Position numbers and translations under genes: made by a program. DNA of 26,456 bases from a virus. The stretch lies in the IMG/VR virus record IMGVR_UViG_3300013101_000071, positions 1 to 26,456 of that record; one strand, given 5' to 3'. The notes under the pieces were generated by a model. It was given only the letters and a program-made list of their open reading frames with translations. It had not been told where the DNA came from and made no database searches. The number at the start of each line of letters is the position of its first letter. Position 1 is the first letter of the stretch. Below are positions 12,463 through 25,703 of this stretch, piece by piece.

Positions 12463-13082
12463 TGGCTTTAAAACGAGATTTTAATGAAGAAGAGCGATAT
12501 GGACTTACTCAAGAAGAGATTAAGATAGGTCAAAGATATCTTCGCAAGCATAAGACTGCTGGTAAGATTGCAAATCCTCAAGCTCTCAAGCTATTTGAGA
12601 TGTATCTAATAGGTCATAGTTTTCATGAAATACAACAAAACTTTACTCAACATCCCGTTGAGCAGATAATACTCACTGCTGCACTTAATAAGTGGGCCAC
12701 AGATAGAGATAGCATGATGCACACACTTAGAGATCGTGTACAGGCAAAGGTTGTTAAATCTGTAATTGAGCAAGTTGACTTCTTAACAGCCATGCTATCT
12801 GTAAGTAGTGCTGAACATGTGGATGTTATGCGTAAGTATGCACAAGATCCCCAAAGCAATCCTAAACCCAAATTACGCGTTGAGTCAATTAAAGAATATA
12901 GAGAAGTAGTTGAAACACTTTATAAAATAGTAGCCGGATCTACAACAGGATCCAAGACTAAAGAGTCTGCTCTATTTGGGGCATTACAGCCTAAACAAGA
13001 GGCTGTTTCGGCCTCAGGCGGCAACGAAGAAGAAGATGTAGCCTCTATGATAGAAGCGTCAATGGAATCTGAAAATGGCTAA
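12462..13082 (+). CDS. Terminase small subunit-like DNA-binding protein
   Basis: A 206-residue protein directly upstream of, and overlapping by eight bases, the large terminase gene. I chose the ATG at 12462, which overlaps the previous stop, over the in-frame TTG at 12441. Residues about 35-80 (NPQALKLFEMYLIGHSFHEI, then a short turn and a helix ending in ALNKWATDRD) look like an HTH; a long helical region follows (AKVVKSVIEQVDFLTAML). The C-terminus is acidic and Ala/Ser-rich. Small terminases bind packaging-site DNA and control the large subunit. The call rests mainly on position and HTH pattern. Confidence 0.72.
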   Translation: MALKRDFNEEERYGLTQEEIKIGQRYLRKHKTAGKIANPQALKLFEMYLIGHSFHEIQQNFTQHPVEQIILTAALNKWATDRDSMMHTLRDRVQAKVVKSVIEQVDFLTAMLSVSSAEHVDVMRKYAQDPQSNPKPKLRVESIKEYREVVETLYKIVAGSTTGSKTKESALFGALQPKQEAVSASGGNEEEDVASMIEASMESENG

Positions 13083-15003
13083 AAAGAAAAAACTATCACT
13101 TATTGAAAAACAGAAATTGATGCTGTTGACACCGTGTAAGACGCGTAAAGAGTTGTATAAGTGGATTCAATACCATCTTGGTCTATCGTTACCAAATGTG
13201 ACCGTATCTAGGTACGCTGACTCTAATCCTTTTGAGATTGTGTGGGAACTATATGACTTAATGGTTTTAAAGAACAACCCCAATGGTTTGCAAGAGGTAC
13301 TTTGTGTTGCCGGTAGAGGATCTGGAAAGACATTGGGAATGGCTATCTTAGAGTTATTAGTTATCTTGCATGATCAACGAGAAGCTGTTCATGTAGGAGC
13401 TACACAGTCACAGGGTGATCGCTGCTATCTCTATATAAAAAACTTTTTATATAATAGAAAAATAAAACCTATTGTATTACCTTCAAAGACCTCTGAGGAT
13501 GAAAGAATCCTCATGAACGCTAATATTACAAAGTCAAACTTTAATATCAATGGGGAGAGGGTTTCATTAGAAGTTCTTCCTTGTACATTGAAAGCGCTCA
13601 ATGGTCCTCACGTTCCACTAGTTGTAGTTGATGAGATTGACACTGTCTCGGGTGAAGGAGCTAAAGCGTTCAAAGAGATATCTGGGATGCTAGATAGCAA
13701 GAACGGTAAGCAGTTCATGCGAGTTGGTATTTCTACACGTAAAAGTCGCTATGGACTAATGAATCAACAGATTGAAACCGCCGAAGAGCAAGATAGAGAA
13801 GTCAGACGTTGGACAGGTTTTGAATTTTCTGAGCGCTGTGCTGATAGTAGATCTGGAACAGATCCCGTTGATCTGTATATACTTCAAGATGACATGGTTG
13901 CATTGACAGAGGAAAAATGGAAAAACAAAGATAAGAAAAAGCAACAAGAGTATATTAAATACACAATGCCTGGGTCTGGTTGCATTACGTGTCCACTAGC
14001 TAGTATATGCCTTGGTGATGCAAAGAATCAAACTGGTACATCTCCTATGCTTAAACCGATTGCAGATATGGCTAAGAAGGTGAAATCAGAAGGAGCTGAT
14101 TGGGCACTTGCTCAGTTGATGAATCTAAAACCATCTGTAGAAGGGATAGTATATAGAGAGTTTGACAATAAGGTTCACGTCCACGATTGGAACTTTATGT
14201 GGCAAAGGCTTACCGGTAGAGTGTTTCCAGGTGAATGCACGCACGATCTGTTTGTAAGTAAGTGTAACGAATTAGGTCTTCCTTGTTATTCCGGTATAGA
14301 TTGGGGTTTTAACTCCCCAAACACTGTTGTTTATTTTTACGTTGACCCTCATGAGAATATATATGTGGTTAGAACTGACGGAATGACCCAATACAGTCAA
14401 CCTATGTGGATCAATCATATTAAAACTAAATGGCACCACATATATAGATGTCAACTCTATTTTCCCGATCAAGCAGATCAAGGTGCCATCGTAGAAATGA
14501 AGAAAGCAGGTTTACCTGCTGCAAATGATAAAAAGAAAGCGGATATCAATGTCGGCGTTCAGGTTGTTAAGAAATGGTTAAGGACTCCAGGCACAGAGGA
14601 TACTAAGTTACTTATTGCTAAAGAGACATGCACTCACATAATTGAAGAATTTAGCATGTATCACTATAAATTAGATGCAGCAGGATTGGTCACTGAGGAT
14701 ACTGCAAAAGAGTTCGATCACTGGCTTGATGCCTTTAGATATGCACTCTTGGGACTATTTGGAAGTAGTACATTAATAATGTCAGAAGATAATTCGTCTT
14801 ACCTATCTAGTGACTTAGCGACAAATAATGGAAATTACCATAGAACTCCAACTCCTTCTGAATTTGCTAAACAGCAGGGATTGAACTTCAATGATGAAGT
14901 TGATACATCAAAACTGGGTAAAATTGGCAAAATAAGTGAATTAGAGGATGATGACGACAGCGATGGTTTCGGCGGAAATGGTGGCTTTTTATGGTCATTT
15001 TAA
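13075..15003 (+). CDS. Terminase large subunit (packaging ATPase/nuclease)
   Basis: The 642-residue motor protein that cuts concatemers and pumps DNA into proheads. ATPase part: Walker A AGRGSGKT (79-86), Walker B VVVDEID (183-189, D186/E187) and coupling motif VGISTRKS (217-224). RNase H-like nuclease part: YSGIDWGFN (D409), YFPDQADQ (D465), and DHWLDAFRY (D548, D552). A Cys cluster CITCPLASIC (303-312), with C255 as a possible fourth ligand, sits between the two domains and suggests a metal-binding insertion seen in some phage terminases. The C-terminus is Asp/Gly-rich. The start overlaps the small subunit and has no strong SD, so translation is probably coupled. Confidence 0.95.
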   Translation: MAKKKKLSLIEKQKLMLLTPCKTRKELYKWIQYHLGLSLPNVTVSRYADSNPFEIVWELYDLMVLKNNPNGLQEVLCVAGRGSGKTLGMAILELLVILHDQREAVHVGATQSQGDRCYLYIKNFLYNRKIKPIVLPSKTSEDERILMNANITKSNFNINGERVSLEVLPCTLKALNGPHVPLVVVDEIDTVSGEGAKAFKEISGMLDSKNGKQFMRVGISTRKSRYGLMNQQIETAEEQDREVRRWTGFEFSERCADSRSGTDPVDLYILQDDMVALTEEKWKNKDKKKQQEYIKYTMPGSGCITCPLASICLGDAKNQTGTSPMLKPIADMAKKVKSEGADWALAQLMNLKPSVEGIVYREFDNKVHVHDWNFMWQRLTGRVFPGECTHDLFVSKCNELGLPCYSGIDWGFNSPNTVVYFYVDPHENIYVVRTDGMTQYSQPMWINHIKTKWHHIYRCQLYFPDQADQGAIVEMKKAGLPAANDKKKADINVGVQVVKKWLRTPGTEDTKLLIAKETCTHIIEEFSMYHYKLDAAGLVTEDTAKEFDHWLDAFRYALLGLFGSSTLIMSEDNSSYLSSDLATNNGNYHRTPTPSEFAKQQGLNFNDEVDTSKLGKIGKISELEDDDDSDGFGGNGGFLWSF

Positions 15004-15057: not shown

Positions 15058-16995
15058 TTGGCAATCTGGGACGACTGGTTTAAAGATAACGATGACTTAC
15101 AGCAAGAAATCAATGAAATGTTGATTAAGGCTGATGATGTACCAGGAGATCGTGTGCCTGATATTAAAGAAGGGGATATGTCTCCAGACGATCAAATAGG
15201 CAGAAAAGCCATTCTGGAAGATCCTTATTTTCAACAAATGAGCAATACAGTAGTCTTTAGGCATAAAATGTCTCGTCTTTCTAATAAGACACTAAAAGAC
15301 GTATCTGTAAGAGATTGGCTCATTTCAGCTATTATTCAGGTGCGAGTAGATACTCTTTTGAGATTTTCTAGGGTTTCCCATGATAAATTCAAAGAAGGTT
15401 TTCGCATTGTTAAACGCAACGATAAAGAAGACACCACCGATGAAGAGCGCGAAGAAATTCATAATTTAGAAAATTTTATTTATCATTGCGGGCGAGTTGA
15501 GAATACTCCAAATGACGACAGAATGTTATTTGGGGAATTTATGAAACTCTTAGGTCGAGATGCGCTTACATTTGGAAACACAGCAATTGAAAAAATCAAA
15601 ACAAGAAGAGGTGGTCTACATAGATTCCGCCCTCTACCGGGCGAGTCAATTTACTTAATTAATAAGCAAGCTAGTCGTAAAATGCTAGAAGATGAAATGA
15701 GAAGTGTTCGTGATCTATATGAACCTGGAGATAATGATCCCGCTAAAGATCACATAAAGAATATTGAAAAACTAGATTATATTAAGTATGTGCAAGTGTC
15801 TTACGACAATCGGACATTGGCTGAATTTGGTGACGAAGATATGATCTGGTCACTGTTTAATCCTCAGAATTTTTCAGATTCTTTAGGATACTGTTATTCT
15901 CCTTTAGAGTTAGCTATAGTTAATATTACTAATCACTTAAATGTAGAGAATTATAATGCAAACTTCTTTACACACGGTTATGCCGCAAGAGGGGTTCTTC
16001 ATCTTAAGGGAACAGTCACTCAACAACAACTTCACTCTTTTAGAAGACAGTATTACAACACTATTTCAGGTACACAAAATGCATGGAGAACTCCAATCAT
16101 AGCTGGCCTTGATGAGGTTCAGTGGGTTCCATTAGCCGGTAATGCTCGTGAGATGGAATACATAAACTTTAACAATCATCTATTACGTGCAATATGTGCT
16201 CAATTTCAAATTGATCCAATTGAGGTTGGTCTTGATTACTTAGTGAGCGGAACCGGTAAAGCACCGAGTGGACAAAACAGTGTTGAGCAAAAAATTGAAT
16301 ATTCTAGAGAAAGAGGGTTGTTCACGTTATTGATGTACTTTGAAGACATCATGAATAGACATATCATCCCAGCAGTTGATAAGGAATTATCAAATAAGTA
16401 TAAATTTGAATTTGTTGGATATAGTGATGAGACTCCACAGACACAGGTTGCGCAGTTGCAAGCTGAAATGACAGTTCACAGTTCAATGAATGATCTTTTA
16501 AGATCTGGTCAAAAAGAAGAACTTAAAGATATGGAGATCGCCGATCTTCCTCTTAATCAATCCTTCTGGATGCAGGTAGAAAAGAACCTAACTAAGGGTG
16601 AAATCAGAGAAATATTCTTTAAAGATAAAGGGGCATCTAAGAGACGCGAACTGCAGTATTTTCCTGGAGATCCAGCATTCATGGGATGGCAACAGTTGTT
16701 GATGACATTAGATCGTCAGAAGATTCAAGATAGAATGATGAAGCAACAACAAGAAGCCGAATCAGATACACAGGAGCAAGAAAGCGGACGTCAAGATGGT
16801 GAACATCAACGTGAGCAAGAAAAGCATGACGCAGAGATGGATGCTAACAAAAATGCGCAAGCTCATGCTGTTGCTCAGCAGTCTGTTCAGGATATTGCAA
16901 AACAAGAAGGTCTTGGATCTAGTCCATTAGTGATCGGTGGAAAACCCGTAGCTAACCCTATAAATAAGAGCAAAAATCCTAAAGAAGATAATTAA
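15058..16995 (+). CDS. Portal protein
   Basis: A 645-residue portal, the ring through which DNA enters and to which tails attach. It starts at TTG with AGGAG (15048-15052) five bases upstream; the next ATG is 20 codons in. Supporting sequence includes WSLFNPQNFSDSLGYCYSPL (the usual NP...GxSPLE region), NVENYNANFFTHGYAARGVL, and CAQFQIDPIEVG (the portal-typical Q-IDP-x-E-G segment). A long helical crown region and a Gln/Glu-rich C-terminal tail (about 560-645) follow. It sits directly after the large terminase, the usual gene order. The exact family (gp20-like or HK97-like) cannot be settled by eye. Confidence 0.9.
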   Translation: MAIWDDWFKDNDDLQQEINEMLIKADDVPGDRVPDIKEGDMSPDDQIGRKAILEDPYFQQMSNTVVFRHKMSRLSNKTLKDVSVRDWLISAIIQVRVDTLLRFSRVSHDKFKEGFRIVKRNDKEDTTDEEREEIHNLENFIYHCGRVENTPNDDRMLFGEFMKLLGRDALTFGNTAIEKIKTRRGGLHRFRPLPGESIYLINKQASRKMLEDEMRSVRDLYEPGDNDPAKDHIKNIEKLDYIKYVQVSYDNRTLAEFGDEDMIWSLFNPQNFSDSLGYCYSPLELAIVNITNHLNVENYNANFFTHGYAARGVLHLKGTVTQQQLHSFRRQYYNTISGTQNAWRTPIIAGLDEVQWVPLAGNAREMEYINFNNHLLRAICAQFQIDPIEVGLDYLVSGTGKAPSGQNSVEQKIEYSRERGLFTLLMYFEDIMNRHIIPAVDKELSNKYKFEFVGYSDETPQTQVAQLQAEMTVHSSMNDLLRSGQKEELKDMEIADLPLNQSFWMQVEKNLTKGEIREIFFKDKGASKRRELQYFPGDPAFMGWQQLLMTLDRQKIQDRMMKQQQEAESDTQEQESGRQDGEHQREQEKHDAEMDANKNAQAHAVAQQSVQDIAKQEGLGSSPLVIGGKPVANPINKSKNPKEDN

Positions 16996-17042: not shown

Positions 17043-17885
17043 ATGTCATGGATAATTTTAGAAGGATTAGATCGTACTGGAAAAACTAGTGTTGCTAATC
17101 TATATAAATCTAAAGGTTTTGAAGTTATTCATTTCTCAGCTCCAGATAAAAAATACAAAGAAGATGGGTACATAGGGCCTTCATATTTTGAAGATATCAT
17201 GGAACTCTATGTTAGGTGCTCTGGTTTAGATATAGTTTTTGACAGATCGATTCATGGCGAATTGGTGTGGCCTCAGGTATATGATCGCGAATCTGTATTA
17301 GAAAGAGATGAAATAACAGAACTAACAGAGATGGAAAATCAAAACGGTGCACAACATATTATGATGTATGATTCTGATGTTAAAAAACATTGGGAGCGAT
17401 GTGTTAAAAATAATGAACCCTTAACAGAGAAACAATTCAGACATGCTAGAAAACTGTTTGATGAAGTGGCGGTAAAGAATGGCTTTGCAAGGAAAAAACT
17501 TACCGATTTTGGACTTCTCCCTACGGAAAGATCTTCCAGTGACAGCGGTGATAGCAGTGGAGATGATACTCTTAATGGTGAAACTGTGTCCACACGAACT
17601 TCGCAGAAAGATTCGGTATCAGGTAAAGAAAAGAGCAACAGCAATGGCGCAGCCAAGTATAGATTGGAAAAGGCGAATGCTATCAATTCTGTATTGCAAT
17701 CTCGATTGATTAAGAAAAAAGGTGAAATCTATGATTTGCTAGAGCAAGACTTAAGAAATCATTTAGAAGAAAGACTTGGTGTGATCCTTGGTGGAGAGTT
17801 AGAAAAAGGTTTCACAAAAGATGAAGTACAAATACTTAAACTATTTTGTAAAAGAACTAAAAAGAAAGCAGAGGAGAACAGATGA
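17043..17885 (+). CDS. P-loop deoxynucleoside monophosphate kinase-like protein with extra C-terminal domain
   Basis: A 280-residue protein in three parts. Residues 1 to about 160 are a small P-loop kinase of the thymidylate kinase group: ILEGLDRTGKTS (5-16, with K14) and FDRS (66-69, the DR(S/Y/F) motif). A typical lid is hard to place and the domain is short. Residues 163-203 are a Ser/Asp/Gly low-complexity linker. Residues 205-280 form a helical domain ending in FTKDEVQILKLFCKRTKKK. It lies between portal and protease genes, an unusual place for nucleotide metabolism. The following gene overlaps it as ATGA. Activity on a nucleotide is inferred; the C-terminal domain may be a separate morphogenesis protein joined by the linker. 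Confidence 0.75.
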   Translation: MSWIILEGLDRTGKTSVANLYKSKGFEVIHFSAPDKKYKEDGYIGPSYFEDIMELYVRCSGLDIVFDRSIHGELVWPQVYDRESVLERDEITELTEMENQNGAQHIMMYDSDVKKHWERCVKNNEPLTEKQFRHARKLFDEVAVKNGFARKKLTDFGLLPTERSSSDSGDSSGDDTLNGETVSTRTSQKDSVSGKEKSNSNGAAKYRLEKANAINSVLQSRLIKKKGEIYDLLEQDLRNHLEERLGVILGGELEKGFTKDEVQILKLFCKRTKKKAEENR

Positions 17886-19048: not shown

Positions 19049-20710
19049 ATGGCCAAAGATAAAGTACTATGGATAGATTGTGTTGCTGGATCGCAACTTA
19101 GAGATACGCAGGGAGAAATGCTATCTGTTGAGGGAGCTGACATATCAGACTTACAGGCTGGTAAGGGTCGCTGGAATGATAACCACGGTAAGGGTTTCTT
19201 TAATTCACTTGGAACTGTCACAGAAGCTAAAAAAATATTTAAAGCTGAAGATTGTGAAAACAGTAGGCACACTTACTATTGGGATAAAATCAAAGCACCA
19301 TATATCTATGCAGCTGGTTATCTATACAATGATGAAGACCACCAGAATGCCAAAGCAGCAGCGGCTATTATTAGAAATATTCACAAGAAAGATTCACCGT
19401 TAAAGCTTAAAGCATCCGTTGAAGGTGGTGTTGTTGCAAGAGGGATTAAGGACGAGAGTCTACTGGCACGAACTAAGATACATTCAGTTGCGTTAACCTT
19501 TACTCCAGCAAACCAAGCAACTCTAGTCGAACCTACTTCCTTACAGAAATCTAGCCCAGAGCCAGGAGATGAAGAGTTAATCAAGTCAGTTATGCATTTG
19601 GCTCAGGAAAATGTACCATCATTTAGACATATAGTTAGACACGGATCGGCGAAGAGAATACACGAGAACCTACATAAGATTGCAGAATTAACTAAACTAA
19701 TAAAAGGTGATAATTCAGATATAGCTATCCCATCACCTAAGGACATCTTAGAGTCTGCAATAGAAGCAAAAATCGCTAATAACGTAAGTAAGATTCATAA
19801 AGCTTTTGCTTGTGAAGAAAATCTAGATAAAGGTATTAAAAGTACTATAGCAGGTGCAGCAGCAGCTGGCATGATCGCTTCATCCCCTGGACAAATATCT
19901 ACAGAGCAAATAAAACCTAAGCAGGCTATAGAGACCGAAGTTAAGCAGCCTCCGCATCAACAAATGGTATCTGGCTTGAAGAAAGATCATCCTCATTTAT
20001 GGGCACTAGCTCATGTAGAAACATCTGGTGGAAAAGACTTAAAACATGTAAAGATAAATAATAAAAAGTCTATGCACCATGGGCATACAGCTGGAGGACC
20101 TTGGGGATTAATGCCCCACACGGTTCAGTATGTGTCATCTATGAGTAAGGCATTGCGTTCTCGACATCCAGAGGTAACTAAGATGGCAAAGGACTCTAGC
20201 AGTGTCAAAGATAATCACGAGAAGATAACTAATCTCATGAATAGTGATCCCAATAGAGCCTTAGATTATGCAAATACTCTATATAATAAGCTTCACAAGG
20301 TCCATGGTGGTGATAAGGATAAGATAGCTCATTCTTGGTATCACGGAATTGGTGGTACAAGGAAAGCTATTAAAGCTGGAAAAGATATATCAAAACATGA
20401 TTATGTTAGTAAATTTAATAATTTACTAGAGCATGGCGATAAACGAGGCAATGTTAAAAATTTACTAAAGAGTGGTAGTGTTGAAAAAGCTATGATGGCT
20501 GGTTATGGAGGAGCTGGTGCTCCAACTGCACAAGTTCAGGGAGCAGTAATTCAATCAGAATCTTTAGATGACGGACGAAACCATAAAGGTTTTAAGTATG
20601 CTGTCTGTGATAAGTGTGGTGAAGAGCAAATATATGGCAAACACCAAGTTAAATGTAGAAAGTGTAATAAATCTTGGAGCTTAGAGAAGCTTTTTAGGTT
20701 TATGGAGTGA
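19049..20710 (+). CDS. Prohead protease fused to lytic transglycosylase domain, capsid-like peptide and zinc ribbon
   Basis: A 553-residue polyprotein. Residues 1 to about 165 are a gp21/S78-like prohead protease: NDNHGKG gives the catalytic His (H46), KASVEGG the Ser (S123), and IHSVALTFTPAN closes the domain. A helical, scaffold-like stretch follows (about 170-300). Residues about 305-465 resemble a soluble lytic transglycosylase: AHVETSGG (catalytic Glu E324), GPWGLMP (350-356) and SWYHGIGGT (429-437). Residues 484-506 repeat the N-terminal capsid motif AGYGGAG-x-PT...VIQ-x-ESL. The end is a zinc ribbon (C520, C523, C536, C539) followed by SWSLEK (542-547). The transcript appears leaderless. 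Self-processing after assembly, leaving the glycosidase inside the head, is inferred. Confidence 0.88.
   Translation: MAKDKVLWIDCVAGSQLRDTQGEMLSVEGADISDLQAGKGRWNDNHGKGFFNSLGTVTEAKKIFKAEDCENSRHTYYWDKIKAPYIYAAGYLYNDEDHQNAKAAAAIIRNIHKKDSPLKLKASVEGGVVARGIKDESLLARTKIHSVALTFTPANQATLVEPTSLQKSSPEPGDEELIKSVMHLAQENVPSFRHIVRHGSAKRIHENLHKIAELTKLIKGDNSDIAIPSPKDILESAIEAKIANNVSKIHKAFACEENLDKGIKSTIAGAAAAGMIASSPGQISTEQIKPKQAIETEVKQPPHQQMVSGLKKDHPHLWALAHVETSGGKDLKHVKINNKKSMHHGHTAGGPWGLMPHTVQYVSSMSKALRSRHPEVTKMAKDSSSVKDNHEKITNLMNSDPNRALDYANTLYNKLHKVHGGDKDKIAHSWYHGIGGTRKAIKAGKDISKHDYVSKFNNLLEHGDKRGNVKNLLKSGSVEKAMMAGYGGAGAPTAQVQGAVIQSESLDDGRNHKGFKYAVCDKCGEEQIYGKHQVKCRKCNKSWSLEKLFRFME
20498..20566 (+). repeat. Protein-level copy of capsid N-terminal motif within protease gene
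   Basis: Encodes AGYGGAG, PT, VIQ and ESL in the same spacing as the major capsid protein at 22147-22215. About 17 of 23 residues match, while many codons differ, so it is conserved as protein rather than as a recent DNA copy. Confidence 0.8.
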
Positions 20711-20748
20711 CAGTAATAGTCGGGTGATGTTTAGGTATCCACTTGTGA

Positions 20749-20754
20749 TATAAT
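20749..20754 (+). promoter_or_regulatory. Extended -10 promoter before head genes
   Basis: TGTGATATAAT fits TGnTATAAT. It leaves a leader of about 58 bases containing a GCC-TTTC-GGT hairpin and a strong SD before the gene at 20819. Confidence 0.5.
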
Positions 20755-20818
20755 TAGACGTATATCAGCCTTTCGGTTTGGTGTGCACCTTAATTTAAAA
20801 AATGAGGAGAGGTAAGAA

Positions 20819-21208
20819 ATGGCTCAAAGACAACAAATGCTTGATAAAATCAAGAGAAATTTAGATATTCTAAAGATCGCTGCTACACGAAATGCAAACG
20901 ATGTTACTTTAAATAACTCTAGTCGTGTGATTAGTTATGTTGATGCAGATATCCAAGCCCCTATGGGTGGAATTGATGGAACGATTAATCCATTTTTAGG
21001 AATCGGTCAGGGTAATCCTGGAAAACTTAAGTTTAAAGGCGCAGGCGGAGAAAACACAATTGCTGCAATCGTTGATGATGCAGAAACTTTACGTGTACTC
21101 GGCGTACTTGGTAACTTTGCAAACGATAAGGTTATCGAAGCTGGCGATACTACAGCAGAATTAGCTGCAATTGAAGGACATACTGATCTTATCGGTATGG
21201 GTCAATAA
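20819..21208 (+). CDS. Small head-region protein, possible decoration protein
   Basis: A 129-residue protein with a strong SD (GGAGAGG, six-base gap) that is nearly identical to that of the major capsid gene, suggesting high expression. The N-terminus is a basic helix; the rest is Gly- and Ala-rich with predicted strands (IQAPMGGIDGTINPFLGIGQ). There are no Cys and no membrane segment. Its place between protease and capsid genes suits a capsid decoration, cement or stabilising protein, but I cannot match it to a known family. Confidence 0.72.
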   Translation: MAQRQQMLDKIKRNLDILKIAATRNANDVTLNNSSRVISYVDADIQAPMGGIDGTINPFLGIGQGNPGKLKFKGAGGENTIAAIVDDAETLRVLGVLGNFANDKVIEAGDTTAELAAIEGHTDLIGMGQ

Positions 21209-21235
21209 TTAACTTTAGCAATAAGGAGTTAGAGA

Positions 21236-22039
21236 ATGAATGAAGAACTCGTAAAAAATCTAACGTCTCTTATCGATGAGACTTTGGTAGAAATTGAAGA
21301 TCTTAAAAAGTCTCGCTATTCTGCCGCTGAAGTTGATATGGGCAAGATGGAAAGCGGAGTCGCTAATCAAGATGCAAATGGTGACATGGGCAAGAAAGAT
21401 GATGACGATGACGATGATGACAAAGACGACAAAGACATGGATAAGGGTGAAGGTAAGAATTCTGAATCTGATCCTGGCACACGTGGAGTAACTCCACAAA
21501 GTGAGTGTGGTGTCCCTAGTAAATCTAGTCTTCATCAAGAAGCTAATAAAGCGGAAGATGATGATGACGATGATAAAGATGACAAAGATAAGGACGATAA
21601 AGATATGGACAAAGGTGAAGGTAAGAATTCTGAATCTGATCCTGGCACACGTGGAGTAACTCCACCTAGTGAAAGCGGTGTCCCTAGTAAATCTAGTCTC
21701 ATGGCTGAAGCTAAAAAATCAGTTAATGAAGATGATAGTCTTATGAAATCTTATATTGATAGTAAAGTTGGCGGACTTGAGAGTAAACTTGATAGTATTG
21801 CCACATTAGTTAAAGAATTAGCTGATACCCCTGTTCAAAGAAAAGGAACTCCAGCCACCGCTGTGCCTCTTGCAAAGAGTGAAAGCGAAGGTGCTGGATT
21901 ACTATCTAAGGCAGATGTATCCAATAAACTGTTAGAAATGAAAAAGTCAGATACTAGTTCTGTCGATACAAACGATATTATCGCTGTAGAGACTGGAATG
22001 GGTCTTCAACCAATCATTGATAAATACAACCTAAAGTAA
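21236..22039 (+). CDS. Acidic repeat protein upstream of capsid, possible scaffold
   Basis: A 267-residue protein with SD AAGGAG seven bases before its ATG. The N-terminus is helical. Residues about 55-155 hold two copies of a unit made of an Asp/Lys run, KGEGKNSESDPGTRGVTP and SGVPSKSSL; the first copy has a Cys where the second has Ser. The second half is helical and Ser/Lys-rich, with a likely coiled coil (KVGGLESKLDSIATLVKELA). Position directly before the major capsid gene and its strong charge suit a scaffolding or core protein. No motif proves this, and an internal structural protein is the other option. Confidence 0.72.
   Translation: MNEELVKNLTSLIDETLVEIEDLKKSRYSAAEVDMGKMESGVANQDANGDMGKKDDDDDDDDKDDKDMDKGEGKNSESDPGTRGVTPQSECGVPSKSSLHQEANKAEDDDDDDKDDKDKDDKDMDKGEGKNSESDPGTRGVTPPSESGVPSKSSLMAEAKKSVNEDDSLMKSYIDSKVGGLESKLDSIATLVKELADTPVQRKGTPATAVPLAKSESEGAGLLSKADVSNKLLEMKKSDTSSVDTNDIIAVETGMGLQPIIDKYNLK
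21446..21532 (+). repeat. Direct repeat, copy 1 (acidic protein gene)
   Basis: Matches 21614-21700 at an offset of 168 bases (56 codons). The first 52 bases are identical and the rest differ at a few positions. Confidence 0.9.
21614..21700 (+). repeat. Direct repeat, copy 2 (acidic protein gene)
   Basis: Second copy of the repeat at 21446-21532. Near-identity at the DNA level points to a recent in-frame duplication. Confidence 0.9.
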
Positions 22040-22053
22040 GGGAGAGGTAAAAG

Positions 22054-23505
22054 ATGTACAGTGAAAATGTAAATCAAATCCTACAAGGAATCGAGCAAGG
22101 AATTGTTTCACCTGAGGATGTTGAGGCCTTGAACAAAGCCATTACTGCTGGTTACGGTGGTGCTGGAAAACCTACCGACCTAGTGTATGGTGGAGTAATT
22201 CAAGCCGAATCATTGGAAGCAACTCTTAAGAGTGTGACCTTTGATATGAAAAATCTTAAGTTCTGGCCTGCGGTTAGCGTAGACAAAGCTTACAATCTAT
22301 TTGAACAATACAATCGTTTGATTGGTTATGGTTCGGATTCTAGTCCATATATTGGTGAAGGTGGAGCTCCTCAAGAAGAAGATTCTACTTACATCCGTGA
22401 CGGACAAAAAATCGTGTTCTTCGGAACTAAGCGTAAAGTGTCTCATCAAATGACACTTGTTCGAACTACAGTTGGTGATATCGTTACCCAACAAGCTAAA
22501 GAGGGTACTATGAATCTTCTTAAGAATGTTGAGCGTGAAATGTACTGGGGGCATGCCCACTTTGCAGGAAATGCTGATGGTGCTCAAGACGGTTCCGACT
22601 CAGCTATCCCAAATAATTCAATCGCAATGAGTGGTTTATTGAAGCAGTTACTTAAAGGTGACCAAGATTCTCAAACTCGAAGCATCGACTTTGAAGGATA
22701 TGGAGATTTTTCTTCTATCTCTCAAAACTTGGACGGAAACGTTCTTACTCAAGACGATGTTGAAAGATTGACAGTTATCGCTTTGGAAAACTTTGGTGAG
22801 CCAAGTGAACTTCACATCGAACCAATCGCGTTGTCTGCCTTTGTTAGACAATTCTATCCACAATTTAGGTCAGCTCCTGGTCTTAGTAATCAAACAGTCG
22901 GTTACGACGTGTCTAAGATTACTACTACCGCCGGTACTGTTGATCTTAAGCCTAACTTGTTCTTACGTCCACGTGCCGGTGTTCGATCTAAGGGCGTTAA
23001 CGAGAATGCTCCTGCTGCTCCAACTGTAGGTGCTACTTCTAACGGACCTGGTGGAACTCTTGAAGAAGGCGATTACAGATATGTAGTTACTGCAGTTAAC
23101 GATCATGGTGAAGGTGCTCCCGCAGCAGCTGTAATTAGAACCGTTGGTGGTGGTGAGACCTCTGTAAATGTTGTGGTCACTTCAGCTCCACCTAATACTA
23201 AGTATGTTAAGGTTTACCGCTCTGAAGTTGGTGGTGCTGCTGGATCTGAAAGATTCATCGCAAACTACAAGTACACAGGTGCTGGTATGAGTTTTGTGGA
23301 CGCAGGTGCTAAGAATCCTGGTCTTGGTGAAGCATTCTTGCTTGACCTTCGTGCAGAGAATATCAAGTTTAAACAACTTGCTCCTCTCTCTAAGATCAAC
23401 TTCGCGATCGTAGCCACTGCATTAGAATTTGCCATTGTTCTTTATGGAGCATTGTTCGTGTATACTCCACGATTCAACTGCTTATTTAGAAATATCGGTA
23501 AGTGA
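22054..23505 (+). CDS. Major capsid protein with Ig/FN3-like domain
   Basis: A 483-residue capsid protein with SD GGAGAGG. The N-terminus is a short helix followed by the AGYGGAG-x-PT...VIQ-x-ESL motif (32-54) also found in the protease polyprotein. The body (about 56-315) has KFWPAVSVDKAYNLFEQYNR, an N-arm/E-loop-like region with YIGEGGAP, and WGHAHFAGNADG. Residues about 316-418 form an Ig- or fibronectin III-like insert (DYRYVVTAVNDHGEGAPA, YVKVYRSE, FVDAG). The last 65 residues return to the capsid fold, ending in LYGALFVYTPRFNC. The call rests on position, expression signals, size and the surface-domain insertion. Residues up to about 55 may be cleaved at maturation. Confidence 0.87.
   Translation: MYSENVNQILQGIEQGIVSPEDVEALNKAITAGYGGAGKPTDLVYGGVIQAESLEATLKSVTFDMKNLKFWPAVSVDKAYNLFEQYNRLIGYGSDSSPYIGEGGAPQEEDSTYIRDGQKIVFFGTKRKVSHQMTLVRTTVGDIVTQQAKEGTMNLLKNVEREMYWGHAHFAGNADGAQDGSDSAIPNNSIAMSGLLKQLLKGDQDSQTRSIDFEGYGDFSSISQNLDGNVLTQDDVERLTVIALENFGEPSELHIEPIALSAFVRQFYPQFRSAPGLSNQTVGYDVSKITTTAGTVDLKPNLFLRPRAGVRSKGVNENAPAAPTVGATSNGPGGTLEEGDYRYVVTAVNDHGEGAPAAAVIRTVGGGETSVNVVVTSAPPNTKYVKVYRSEVGGAAGSERFIANYKYTGAGMSFVDAGAKNPGLGEAFLLDLRAENIKFKQLAPLSKINFAIVATALEFAIVLYGALFVYTPRFNCLFRNIGK
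22147..22215 (+). repeat. Capsid N-terminal motif shared with protease
   Basis: Encodes the counterpart of the motif at 20498-20566; see the protease and capsid entries. Its end, ESLE followed by Ala, is a candidate protease cut site. Confidence 0.8.
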
Positions 23506-23560: not shown

Positions 23561-23564
23561 ATTG

Positions 23565-23570
23565 TATAAT
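23565..23570 (+). promoter_or_regulatory. Promoter overlapping terminator, leaderless arrangement
   Basis: TATAAT with a good -35, TTGACT (23543-23548), 16 bases upstream; the -35 lies in the loop and 3' arm of the terminator. Six bases separate the -10 from the ATG at 23577, predicting a leaderless mRNA. Confidence 0.65.
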
Positions 23571-23576
23571 AGAGAT

Positions 23577-25007
23577 ATGGATAATAGATTAGAGCGAGCT
23601 GCAAAGACATTGTTAGTGATCAAAGAGATCTTAGAGAAAGCGAAACCAAAAGGCGTTAAAGCCAACATGTTTAAGCTTAAGCAGATGGTTAATGCGAACT
23701 TCATTAAAGATCCTAAACTCTTACTTGAGCTAAAGGATCACATAAAAGAGACAGAAGGCAAACTTAAAGCTGGAAAGTTAAAAGACAACCGTGACCCAGA
23801 TATAATCAAAAAAGAAAGAGAAATAAAGCGCACAGCCTCAATTAAAGCCGCAAAAGTTCACCATAGAGATATTAAAGCTCTTAAGGCTGCCGGTGTGGAT
23901 AGAGATCATCCTCAAGTAAAAGAATTAAGAGATAAATTAGACAAACTTAGGGATTCAATTACTAAAGGTAAAACTGCTGATCAAGTGAGAGCAAAAATAA
24001 AAGAACATCTAGAGGGTATTCAAACACATGTTGCTAAAGGCGGACGAGCATCACAAGAAAAGATAGCAAGTTTAAGAGATAAAATCTCAGATATGCATCC
24101 TCACTTAACTGTCCATGAAGATGTTGATCATGATTCATTGATTGCTCATAAGTTAAACTACAAACTAAAAGACACTAAAGAATATAAAGAGCTTTTTGGT
24201 AAAAAACCAGATAAAGCGCCAATCAAAGCTGAAGCACGTAAACAAAATGCTGAAGCACTTGATAGCGATAAGGGTAAGAAAGCGATAAGAGTAATGCCAA
24301 AAGGTGAAGCTGATCCAGAGCAAAAAATAAGACCTAGATCTAAAACTAAATCAACGGCCAGCGGTAACATATATGATTTAGCGAATTACAATAAGACAAC
24401 CAAAGAGAAGAAGCAAACAGTTGCTGGTGCTAAAATTGCACTAAGTGATCCTGTACAAGATGTAATAAATGAAAAAAATCCTGCATCTGATGCACCAACC
24501 TCAACCAAAGCATCATTTAAAAATACACCAGTTATCACGCGCAAGAAGATGGCTAAATCTGATGATTTACAAAAAGACTCTTCTAATCCTAATTTAGCAC
24601 CTAAAGATGTAAAGGTTAAAGAGTTGCAACGTCAGATTGATGCGGGAACTTATAAACCAGATCCTAAAAAGATTGCAGATAAAGTTGTTGAAAGAGTTAA
24701 GTTTGCCAAGAACGGCCAGTGGTCTTTAGAGAAGAGTAACTATGGTCCTAAGGGTGCTGGTGCTTATAGTGCTATAGATAATGCTAAACGAAAGGAAACT
24801 CGTACAAGCGAAGTAAGAGAAGATATTGGGCAAAATAAAGCAGTAAGGCAATATACAACCACTGGTTCTTCTACAGATAAGGCAAGAACAGACGTAGAAT
24901 TAAATAGGCAAAAAGCCCTTAACAGAAAGGCACCTGTTAAAAACATTACCCTAAGTCCTGAAGAAAAGGCAAAGATAGAAGCGCGTTATAATGCTAAAAA
25001 ACCTTAA
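23577..25007 (+). CDS. Basic, low-complexity protein with FlgM-like anti-sigma motif
   Basis: A 476-residue Lys-rich, mostly helical protein. The frame opens at a TTG (23562) inside the promoter, so the ATG at 23577 is preferred. N-terminal helices (1-200) include likely coiled coils; the middle is basic and disordered. Residues about 346-376 (VKELQRQIDAGTYKPD, then PKKIADKVVERV) strongly resemble the C-terminal motif of FlgM-family anti-sigma factors (V..L...I..G.Y..D...IA). GQWSLEK follows at 380-386, and the C-terminus is again basic. No SD. It lies directly after the capsid terminator. It could be an internal head protein injected with the DNA to bind a host sigma factor; that is inference, while the motif is visible. 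Confidence 0.75.
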   Translation: MDNRLERAAKTLLVIKEILEKAKPKGVKANMFKLKQMVNANFIKDPKLLLELKDHIKETEGKLKAGKLKDNRDPDIIKKEREIKRTASIKAAKVHHRDIKALKAAGVDRDHPQVKELRDKLDKLRDSITKGKTADQVRAKIKEHLEGIQTHVAKGGRASQEKIASLRDKISDMHPHLTVHEDVDHDSLIAHKLNYKLKDTKEYKELFGKKPDKAPIKAEARKQNAEALDSDKGKKAIRVMPKGEADPEQKIRPRSKTKSTASGNIYDLANYNKTTKEKKQTVAGAKIALSDPVQDVINEKNPASDAPTSTKASFKNTPVITRKKMAKSDDLQKDSSNPNLAPKDVKVKELQRQIDAGTYKPDPKKIADKVVERVKFAKNGQWSLEKSNYGPKGAGAYSAIDNAKRKETRTSEVREDIGQNKAVRQYTTTGSSTDKARTDVELNRQKALNRKAPVKNITLSPEEKAKIEARYNAKKP

Positions 25008-25061: not shown

Positions 25062-25703
25062 ATGAAGAAAGCTATATATATATGTCTTGAAGGAACAGAA
25101 GGTGTTGGCAAGACTACACAGACACAAAATCTTGTAAACTATCTAAAAGACAAGGGGTATAAGGTACTACAAACAAAAGAACCTGGAACACCCTTATCAC
25201 CACTAACTATGACTCTTCGAGGTATCATGTTAGATAATCAATATGATAAAGAGTTAACAGCTCCCGCAAGAGAACTTATCAGTCAAGCAATCAGATCAAT
25301 ACATTTAGAAAGAGTAATTAAACCTGCAATGAATAAGTATGACTTTATCATTCAAGATCGTGGGGTATTATCTGGTTATGCATATGGAACAGCATGTGGT
25401 AACAGTTTTGCAGAAATACGTAATTTAGCAGAGTATGTGGCTGGATCTCCATGTCCAGAAGGTTTATACGATAAAGTTCTATACCTAAGAGGGGATGTCT
25501 CTAAGGGGTTGGAGATTGCGAAATCTTCAAAACAAGAATTTAAGCAGGGTGATGCAATGGAATCTCGTGGAGATTCTTTTATGCATAAGGTATCTGATAA
25601 TATGGATACTATGTCATGTAACTTTAATACGGGCATAGTTGATGTAGATGGTAAGGGGATTGAAGAAGTATTTTCAGAAATACGAAACATATTAGAGGTC
25701 TAA
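25062..25703 (+). CDS. tmk: Thymidylate kinase (dTMP kinase)
   Basis: A 213-residue P-loop kinase that phosphorylates dTMP to dTDP for phage DNA synthesis. Motifs: P-loop LEGTEGVGKTTQ (9-20, K17), KEPGTP (39-44, in place of the usual REPGGT), and QDRGVLSGYAYG (the DR motif and the AY-containing nucleotide site). Length fits the family. SD GGAGG is four bases before the ATG. A second kinase-like gene lies at 17043, but this one is the complete, canonical copy. The following gene starts three bases after its stop. Confidence 0.92.
   Translation: MKKAIYICLEGTEGVGKTTQTQNLVNYLKDKGYKVLQTKEPGTPLSPLTMTLRGIMLDNQYDKELTAPARELISQAIRSIHLERVIKPAMNKYDFIIQDRGVLSGYAYGTACGNSFAEIRNLAEYVAGSPCPEGLYDKVLYLRGDVSKGLEIAKSSKQEFKQGDAMESRGDSFMHKVSDNMDTMSCNFNTGIVDVDGKGIEEVFSEIRNILEV

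Follow-up and report, generated by a model that had tools for sequence, protein, structure and literature searches.

The nearest known ideas to the arrangement analysed here are the capsid targeting sequences of phage T4, the C-terminal autocleavage of giant-phage proteases and the domain study of the HK97 protease. The herpesvirus protease has a docking segment in common with another head protein. Functional domains and encapsidation of HK97 gp4 are reportedly among the subjects studied by Duda in 2013, as cited in PMC12749128. The protease of phiKZ and SPN3US cuts its own C-terminus (PMC5694885), and how giant-phage proteases come to be packaged into the prohead in the proper copy number, and why they remove their own C-terminus, has been called unresolved (PMC5694885).

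The window, meaning the whole stretch of DNA analysed, is one IMG/VR virus contig of 26456 bases. Its head gene block encodes a protease polyprotein that carries, near its C-terminus, a second copy of the N-terminal arm of the major capsid protein (MCP).

Head gene block of the window

The block comprises a putative terminase large subunit (13075-15003, named from its sequence), a portal (15058-16995), a head maturation protease polyprotein of 553 aa (19049-20710, plus strand; phrog_1028, Foldseek and an alignment of 29 relatives), an ORF of 129 aa (20819-21208), a probable scaffold protein (21236-22039, plus strand) and an MCP of 483 aa (22054-23505, plus strand; phrog_752 and SPO1 gp6.1 in the PDB). 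The MCP is a member of the SPO1/Twort family (phrog_752), which it matched over residues 17-482 in a whole-protein profile search (E=3.2e-60); it also matched SPO1 gp6.1 in the PDB (E=1.2e-61) and is ~31% identical to the SPO1 MCP. A search with the window protease returned no Herelleviridae record and only Myxococcus phage Mx1 (36% identity over 28%). MCP relatives were present in three Bacteroidota MAGs (L102, Flavobacteriaceae; L103, Cytophagales; L104, Saprospiraceae), hinting at Bacteroidota hosts for the window clade. On the basis of the MCP and protease distances and of these MAGs, the window phage was judged to have no close core-gene kinship to Herelleviridae.

The 129-aa ORF had no Pfam or PHROG match and is possibly a head decoration protein. 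Two thymidylate-kinase-like ORFs lie in the head region (17043-17885 and 25062-25703), the former having only a weak kinase N-terminus fused to a serine-rich and helical tail. A basic ORF of 481 aa (23562-25007) contains numerous K-A and K-S dipeptides and could be a further processed head protein; its FlgM match (E=2e-7 across ~27 residues) is possibly spurious.

A shared arm in the protease and the MCP

Protease residues 484-506 read AGYGGAGAPTAQVQGAVIQSESL, starting at position 20498, and MCP residues 32-54 read AGYGGAGKPTDLVYGGVIQAESL, ending at position 22215, with 17 of 23 residues identical. In both proteins K-A-x-x precedes this core (K480-A481 in the protease, K28-A29 in the MCP), exactly where the initial annotation had placed the motif and the K-A before it. 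With its flanks, the shared stretch spans protease residues 480-507 (K480 to D507; 20486-20569, plus strand) and MCP residues 28-55 (K28 to E55; 22135-22218, plus strand), and the two have K-A-x-x-AGYGGAG-x-PT...VIQxESL in common. Identity begins at the Lys and ends ~27 residues on; before the Lys there is no likeness. Local alignment of the protease with its own MCP N-terminus scored 95, as against a mean of 30.9 (sd 4.3, maximum 47) for 200 shuffles. Chance resemblance was ruled out by the shuffles together with the conservation described below.

Of the 28 codon pairs in this stretch, 18 encode the same residue, 7 of them by the same codon and 11 by synonymous codons, and synonymous differences between the arm copies were also present in Mx1, LysYB1, Twort, LMSP-25 and SPO1. 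Recent duplication or gene conversion was ruled out by these differences. They bear out the earlier proposal that the peptide is held by selection at the protein level, and the pair is conserved across the family.

Conservation of the pair

A query with the 76-aa protease tail in viral_contigs retrieved no relatives, the patterns being too specific, and MCP loci were used instead. Close MCP relatives were collected from 80 IMG/VR loci and 3 MAG loci, giving 84 loci with the window, and an HMM built from 26 distinct MCP arms only was run on 13,238 ORFs. This HMM found a second arm copy in 77 of the 84 window-clade loci, in the protease ORF; the other 7 end just upstream of the MCP, so that the pair was present in 77/77 loci with enough upstream sequence. 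A strict motif pattern caught 64 loci, a difference due to the pattern and not to biology. Each of 13 large relative contigs (108-177 kb) had exactly two arm matches, one in an MCP-length ORF and the other in an ORF of 312-572 aa, and no third arm-bearing protein was seen in these 13. The arm is kept even in six loci (L015, L020, L036, L037, L047 and L069) where the protease gene lies on the strand opposite to the MCP. K480 and A481 are invariant in the alignment of 29 proteases; over 60 distinct protease segments the processing site has K in 100% and A in 96%, and the arm is near-invariant.

The SPO1/Twort MCP family comprises 416 public phage records. An arm copy was found in the protease of 16/16 Herelleviridae-type phages sampled (SPO1, Goe16, Goe26, LysYB1, EalM-132, AVP, phiRNIID, Alsa_1, Lpa804, 015DV004, Fi4S2, EF24C, CM1, LMSP-25, Twort and Lbab1) and also in Mx1 and Bordetella phage PHB04, and in each of these 18 phages the protease scored higher against its own MCP arm than all 200 shuffles. 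The arm pairs are KAMEAGNFNAAPSTL / KAMEAGNFNAKPSTL in Mx1, KALEAGYATTPETQVDGGALRKESL / KALSAGYATSPETQVNGGAFRVESL in LysYB1 and KSLEAGYEVDPEKMEGGDVFRKESL / KALEAGHTVNPLDLEGGGAFRVESL in SPO1. A PDB search with a whole staphylococcal protease led to the phage 812 capsid protein through the arm segment alone (E=6.7e-7), and whole-genome scans of SPO1 and Mx1 found the arm only in the MCP and the protease. The motif search in relatives that the initial annotation had suggested thus recovered both copies across the family. Scans of Bacteroides phage DAC19 and Chryseobacterium phage MA9V-3 returned the MCP only, with no second copy, and the arm device is therefore dispensable there. HK97, D3 and T4 (gp21/gp23), checked as other head families, had no arm copy, with scores inside the shuffled range.

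Tracking between the two copies

Among 14 representatives, own pairs had a mean score of 96.8, compared with 62.4 for swapped pairs; after row and column effects were removed from the own-pair scores, the observed trace was reached by 0 of 100,000 permutations. Arm length from the Lys is matched by lineage (25/25 in Herelleviridae, 26/26 in Mx1 and 27/27 in the window clade for the two proteins), the Herelleviridae figure referring to phages matched on both sides, since the automatic match missed one or both sides in several. Exceptions were Lpa804 (25/28) and PHB04 (26/25). Co-variation at a finer scale, within the window clade, is weak: arm residue 8 is G or Y in the MCP, and MCPs with Y keep G in the protease, with no co-variation.

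Cut site and scaffold

In the PDB, the mature MCP chain of phage 812 (9row) has 439 aa, and its first residue is the Ser that immediately follows the conserved Lys; the precursor entry (5lii) has 463 aa. An alignment of 36 MCPs, reaching down to ~20% identity, has 7 invariant columns, and MCP Lys28 is among them. Because the mature 812 protein begins directly after the equivalent residue, the Lys before the motif is likely to be cut. By this analogy, cuts are predicted at MCP K28|A29, removing a pro-region of residues 1-28 (22054-22137, plus strand) and making A29 the mature N-terminus, and at protease K480|A481, with Lys480 (20486-20488, plus strand) as the P1 residue of a self-cleavage. The motif itself would then lie on the retained side as the N-arm of the mature MCP. 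The suggestion of a protease cut site thus holds for the location, just behind the conserved Lys, and fails for the motif as the site itself; cleavage near MCP residue 55, also envisaged initially, finds no support, since the mature 812 chain starts right after the Lys and retains the motif. A Glu-type cut IQxE|SL as in T4 was rejected, the motif being kept in that chain.

The window scaffold ORF (acidic, 267 aa) is placed between the protease and the MCP, like SPO1 gp3.3, and most relatives have these genes in the order protease-scaffold-MCP. K-S dipeptides exceeded expectation in the putative scaffolds of SPO1 (12 observed, 3.2 expected), LysYB1 (9 and 1.8) and the window (7 and 3.7, with K-A sites as well), and tail sheath controls had no K-S enrichment. 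The window scaffold-like ORF contains two units of an internal repeat, DDKDMDKGEGKNSESDPGTRGVTPxSExGVPSKSSL, each of them with K-S sites. The MCP-arm HMM found no arm motif in scaffold proteins or in any other ORF searched. Because the scaffold K-S sites occur without it, the arm appears unnecessary for cutting, and a protease recognition sequence, as first proposed, is unlikely to be the whole story when scaffolds are rich in K-S yet never carry the motif.

Domains of the protease and the predicted fragment

The protease domain is of the HK97-type (S78-like) head maturation class: it matched phrog_1028 (head maturation protease) over residues 89-161 (E=6.5e-8), and in 29 relatives H46 and S123 are invariant and H145 nearly so, forming a putative catalytic Ser/His set. 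The nearest Foldseek matches were herpesvirus assemblins, at a weak E=0.015. Alignment of the 29 proteases showed conservation of the protease domain and of the tail of arm plus zinc ribbon, but not of the middle. In the window clade this variable cargo domain (in the window, residues ~303-462, 19955-20434, plus strand) is lytic-transglycosylase-like, with a Pfam SLT match in 3/29 relatives, AF2 pLDDT mostly 89-97, and Foldseek matches to MltD, SLT70 and phi6 lysin at a probability of up to 0.89 but E>0.2. This likeness suggests that the head packages an enzyme that cuts peptidoglycan. In other relatives the middle domain consists of HEAT or LRV repeats (L013, L038, L071 and L082), is GNAT-like (L015) or is nearly absent, and protease ORFs reach ~1007 aa.

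The arm region of the protease is predicted by AF2 to be disordered (pLDDT <50 at residues 465-512), and the C-terminal CxxC...CxxC zinc ribbon behind it (residues 517-553, 20597-20707, plus strand) has pLDDT mostly about 85. The ribbon rests on Cys conservation, with Cys 520, 523, 536 and 539 invariant in 29 relatives, and on weak Pfam zinc-ribbon matches; it was present in 64/64 tabulated motif ORFs. In L013 (3784-6753), LRV/HEAT-like repeats are inserted between arm and ribbon and K-S-L precedes the ribbon, a sequence that suggests a second cut there. Herelleviridae have a different domain behind the arm, a helix-rich-looking segment. The AF2 model of the MCP was poor (pLDDT 44) and was left unused.

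In ten phages the predicted arm-bearing fragment would comprise 73-99 aa (8.1-11.3 kDa). For SPO1 gp3.2 the new N-terminus is predicted at S170 (SLEAGYEV...), which would give a fragment of 87 aa and 9.9 kDa; in the LMSP-25 protease the corresponding Lys is Lys170. Three mass spectrometry studies of purified Herelleviridae virions detected the protease (PMC5618024, PMC3601020, PMC12282133); these peptides are compatible with a retained fragment and are not proof of one. For CKA15, 4 peptides covered 29.5% of the protease (PMC12282133). The 812 and SPO1 capsids have been solved and the PDB has no chain for the fragment, which therefore does not belong to the mature shell as a stoichiometric component with icosahedral order and, if kept, would be low-copy or off symmetry.

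Proposed capsid-arm mimicry and its alternatives

Our best explanation, to which we give about an even chance, is that the protease polyprotein carries a capsid-arm mimic and a small C-terminal domain that dock the protease in the prohead, and that a cut severs this anchor. It is favoured because the pair is present in all window-clade loci with enough upstream sequence and in the sampled phages with this MCP family; because identity is confined to the Lys and ~27 residues, and the mature 812 MCP starts after that Lys; because own pairs score higher than swapped ones and arm lengths correspond lineage by lineage; because the arm is kept while the cargo varies (SLT, HEAT, LRV, GNAT or none) and the rear domain is swapped; and because scaffold K-S sites and the other ORFs searched lack the arm and protease peptides occur in Herelleviridae virions. 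Against it count the missing PDB chain for the fragment, the single copy in DAC19 and MA9V-3, the behaviour of arm residue 8 in the window clade and the unequal arm lengths of Lpa804 and PHB04.

We infer the docking by mimicry, the cleavage at K480|A481 and the fate of the fragment as follows. Near its C-terminus the protease would present a mimic of the mature MCP N-arm, preceded by the same Lys processing site and followed by a small independent domain (a zinc ribbon in the window clade, a helical domain in Herelleviridae). During assembly, arm and domain would dock the protease and any cargo at a prohead site able to bind a capsid arm, the protease copy occupying, or competing for, the arm's place on the shell. 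Once switched on, the protease would cut both the MCP and its own chain after the same Lys, and the scaffold at K-S/K-A sites. The self-cut would free the enzyme from its anchor and leave an 8-11 kDa arm-bearing fragment whose N-terminus would be that of the mature MCP.

The main rival is that a protease exosite reads the capsid arm as an extended substrate, and that the enzyme's own copy is a pseudo-substrate keeping it inactive until cut in cis. Conservation of the arm together with the processing Lys in both proteins would fit such an autoinhibitor, and co-variation is also expected if both copies fit one exosite. The match, however, lies almost wholly on the P' side and extends over ~27 residues, beyond the usual reading of a protease cleft; a separate conserved domain follows the arm; and the scaffold sites, which most simply would be cut by this enzyme too, are without it. 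We regard this reading as unlikely. In a further reading, the arm is a scaffold-binding tag, the uncut MCP arm and the protease copy binding the same scaffold site so that the scaffold recruits both. A scaffold core must gather both proteins, and most relatives have the scaffold gene between theirs; but the arm stays as the mature N-terminus after the scaffold is gone, pointing to a role on the shell, and the acidic scaffold sequences are strongly variable where the arm is not, which makes the tag improbable. The initial annotation had proposed a scaffold-binding tag that brings the protease into the growing head: bringing the protease in remains the best idea, and scaffold binding gives way, as the likeness is to the capsid arm. 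Finally, part of the capsid gene could have been duplicated long ago onto the protease gene and have survived there as a relic with no present role, and one-way sharing of a short segment would be the expected trace of such an event. A relic is highly improbable: the peptide is kept although 11 of the 18 identical residues differ at synonymous sites, it hardly varies among 60 distinct proteases, and the two copies track each other across very distant phages. Own pairs scoring above swapped ones, with lineage-matched length, are not expected from the independent decay of an old duplicate.

Arm mimicry may have a further consequence, which we consider rather doubtful. The protease gene could yield a hidden minor head protein: a self-cleavage piece of 73-99 aa that begins like the mature capsid protein and has a domain of its own. 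This piece would stand in for a capsid arm at particular positions of the lattice, such as those around the portal vertex, and would in this way set the number or position of proteases and cargo enzymes in the head. The arm would then be a general packaging address, with cargo (transglycosylase, HEAT/LRV repeats, acetyltransferase-like) differing between phages.

Comparison with known systems

No report of a protease copying and tracking the arm of the capsid protein was found in the open literature, and subscription papers may hold one. Arm mimicry would give a simple answer, testable in SPO1 and 812, to how proteases enter the prohead and why they cut themselves: the protease would mimic a protein of the shell, and the severing of the enzyme's anchor would obey the same rule as shell maturation. 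Such pairs occur widely, therapeutic staphylococcal and Listeria phages included, and the arm could be used as a tag to direct chosen proteins into phage heads.

The Herelleviridae pairs (SPO1 gp3.2/gp6.1 and Twort ORF040/ORF016) are like the window in MCP family (phrog_752), gene order and arm copy, and differ in having a helical domain after the arm instead of a zinc ribbon, no SLT cargo and an arm of 25 instead of 27 residues. The HK97 gp4 and D3 proteases are similarly capsid-internal enzymes that remove an N-terminal region of the MCP, but they have no capsid-arm copy, and the scaffold is fused to the MCP. T4 capsid targeting sequences carry proteins into the prohead and are then removed, which resembles the role proposed for the arm; they are N-terminal and are not copies of a mature MCP arm, T4 gp21 and gp23 have no shared arm, and in T4, phiKZ and SPN3US the cut falls after Glu and not after Lys. 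Herpesvirus assemblin (UL26/UL26.5) has a protease fold weakly like that of the window protease, and there the segment is common to protease and scaffold, whereas in the window phage it is common to protease and capsid protein.
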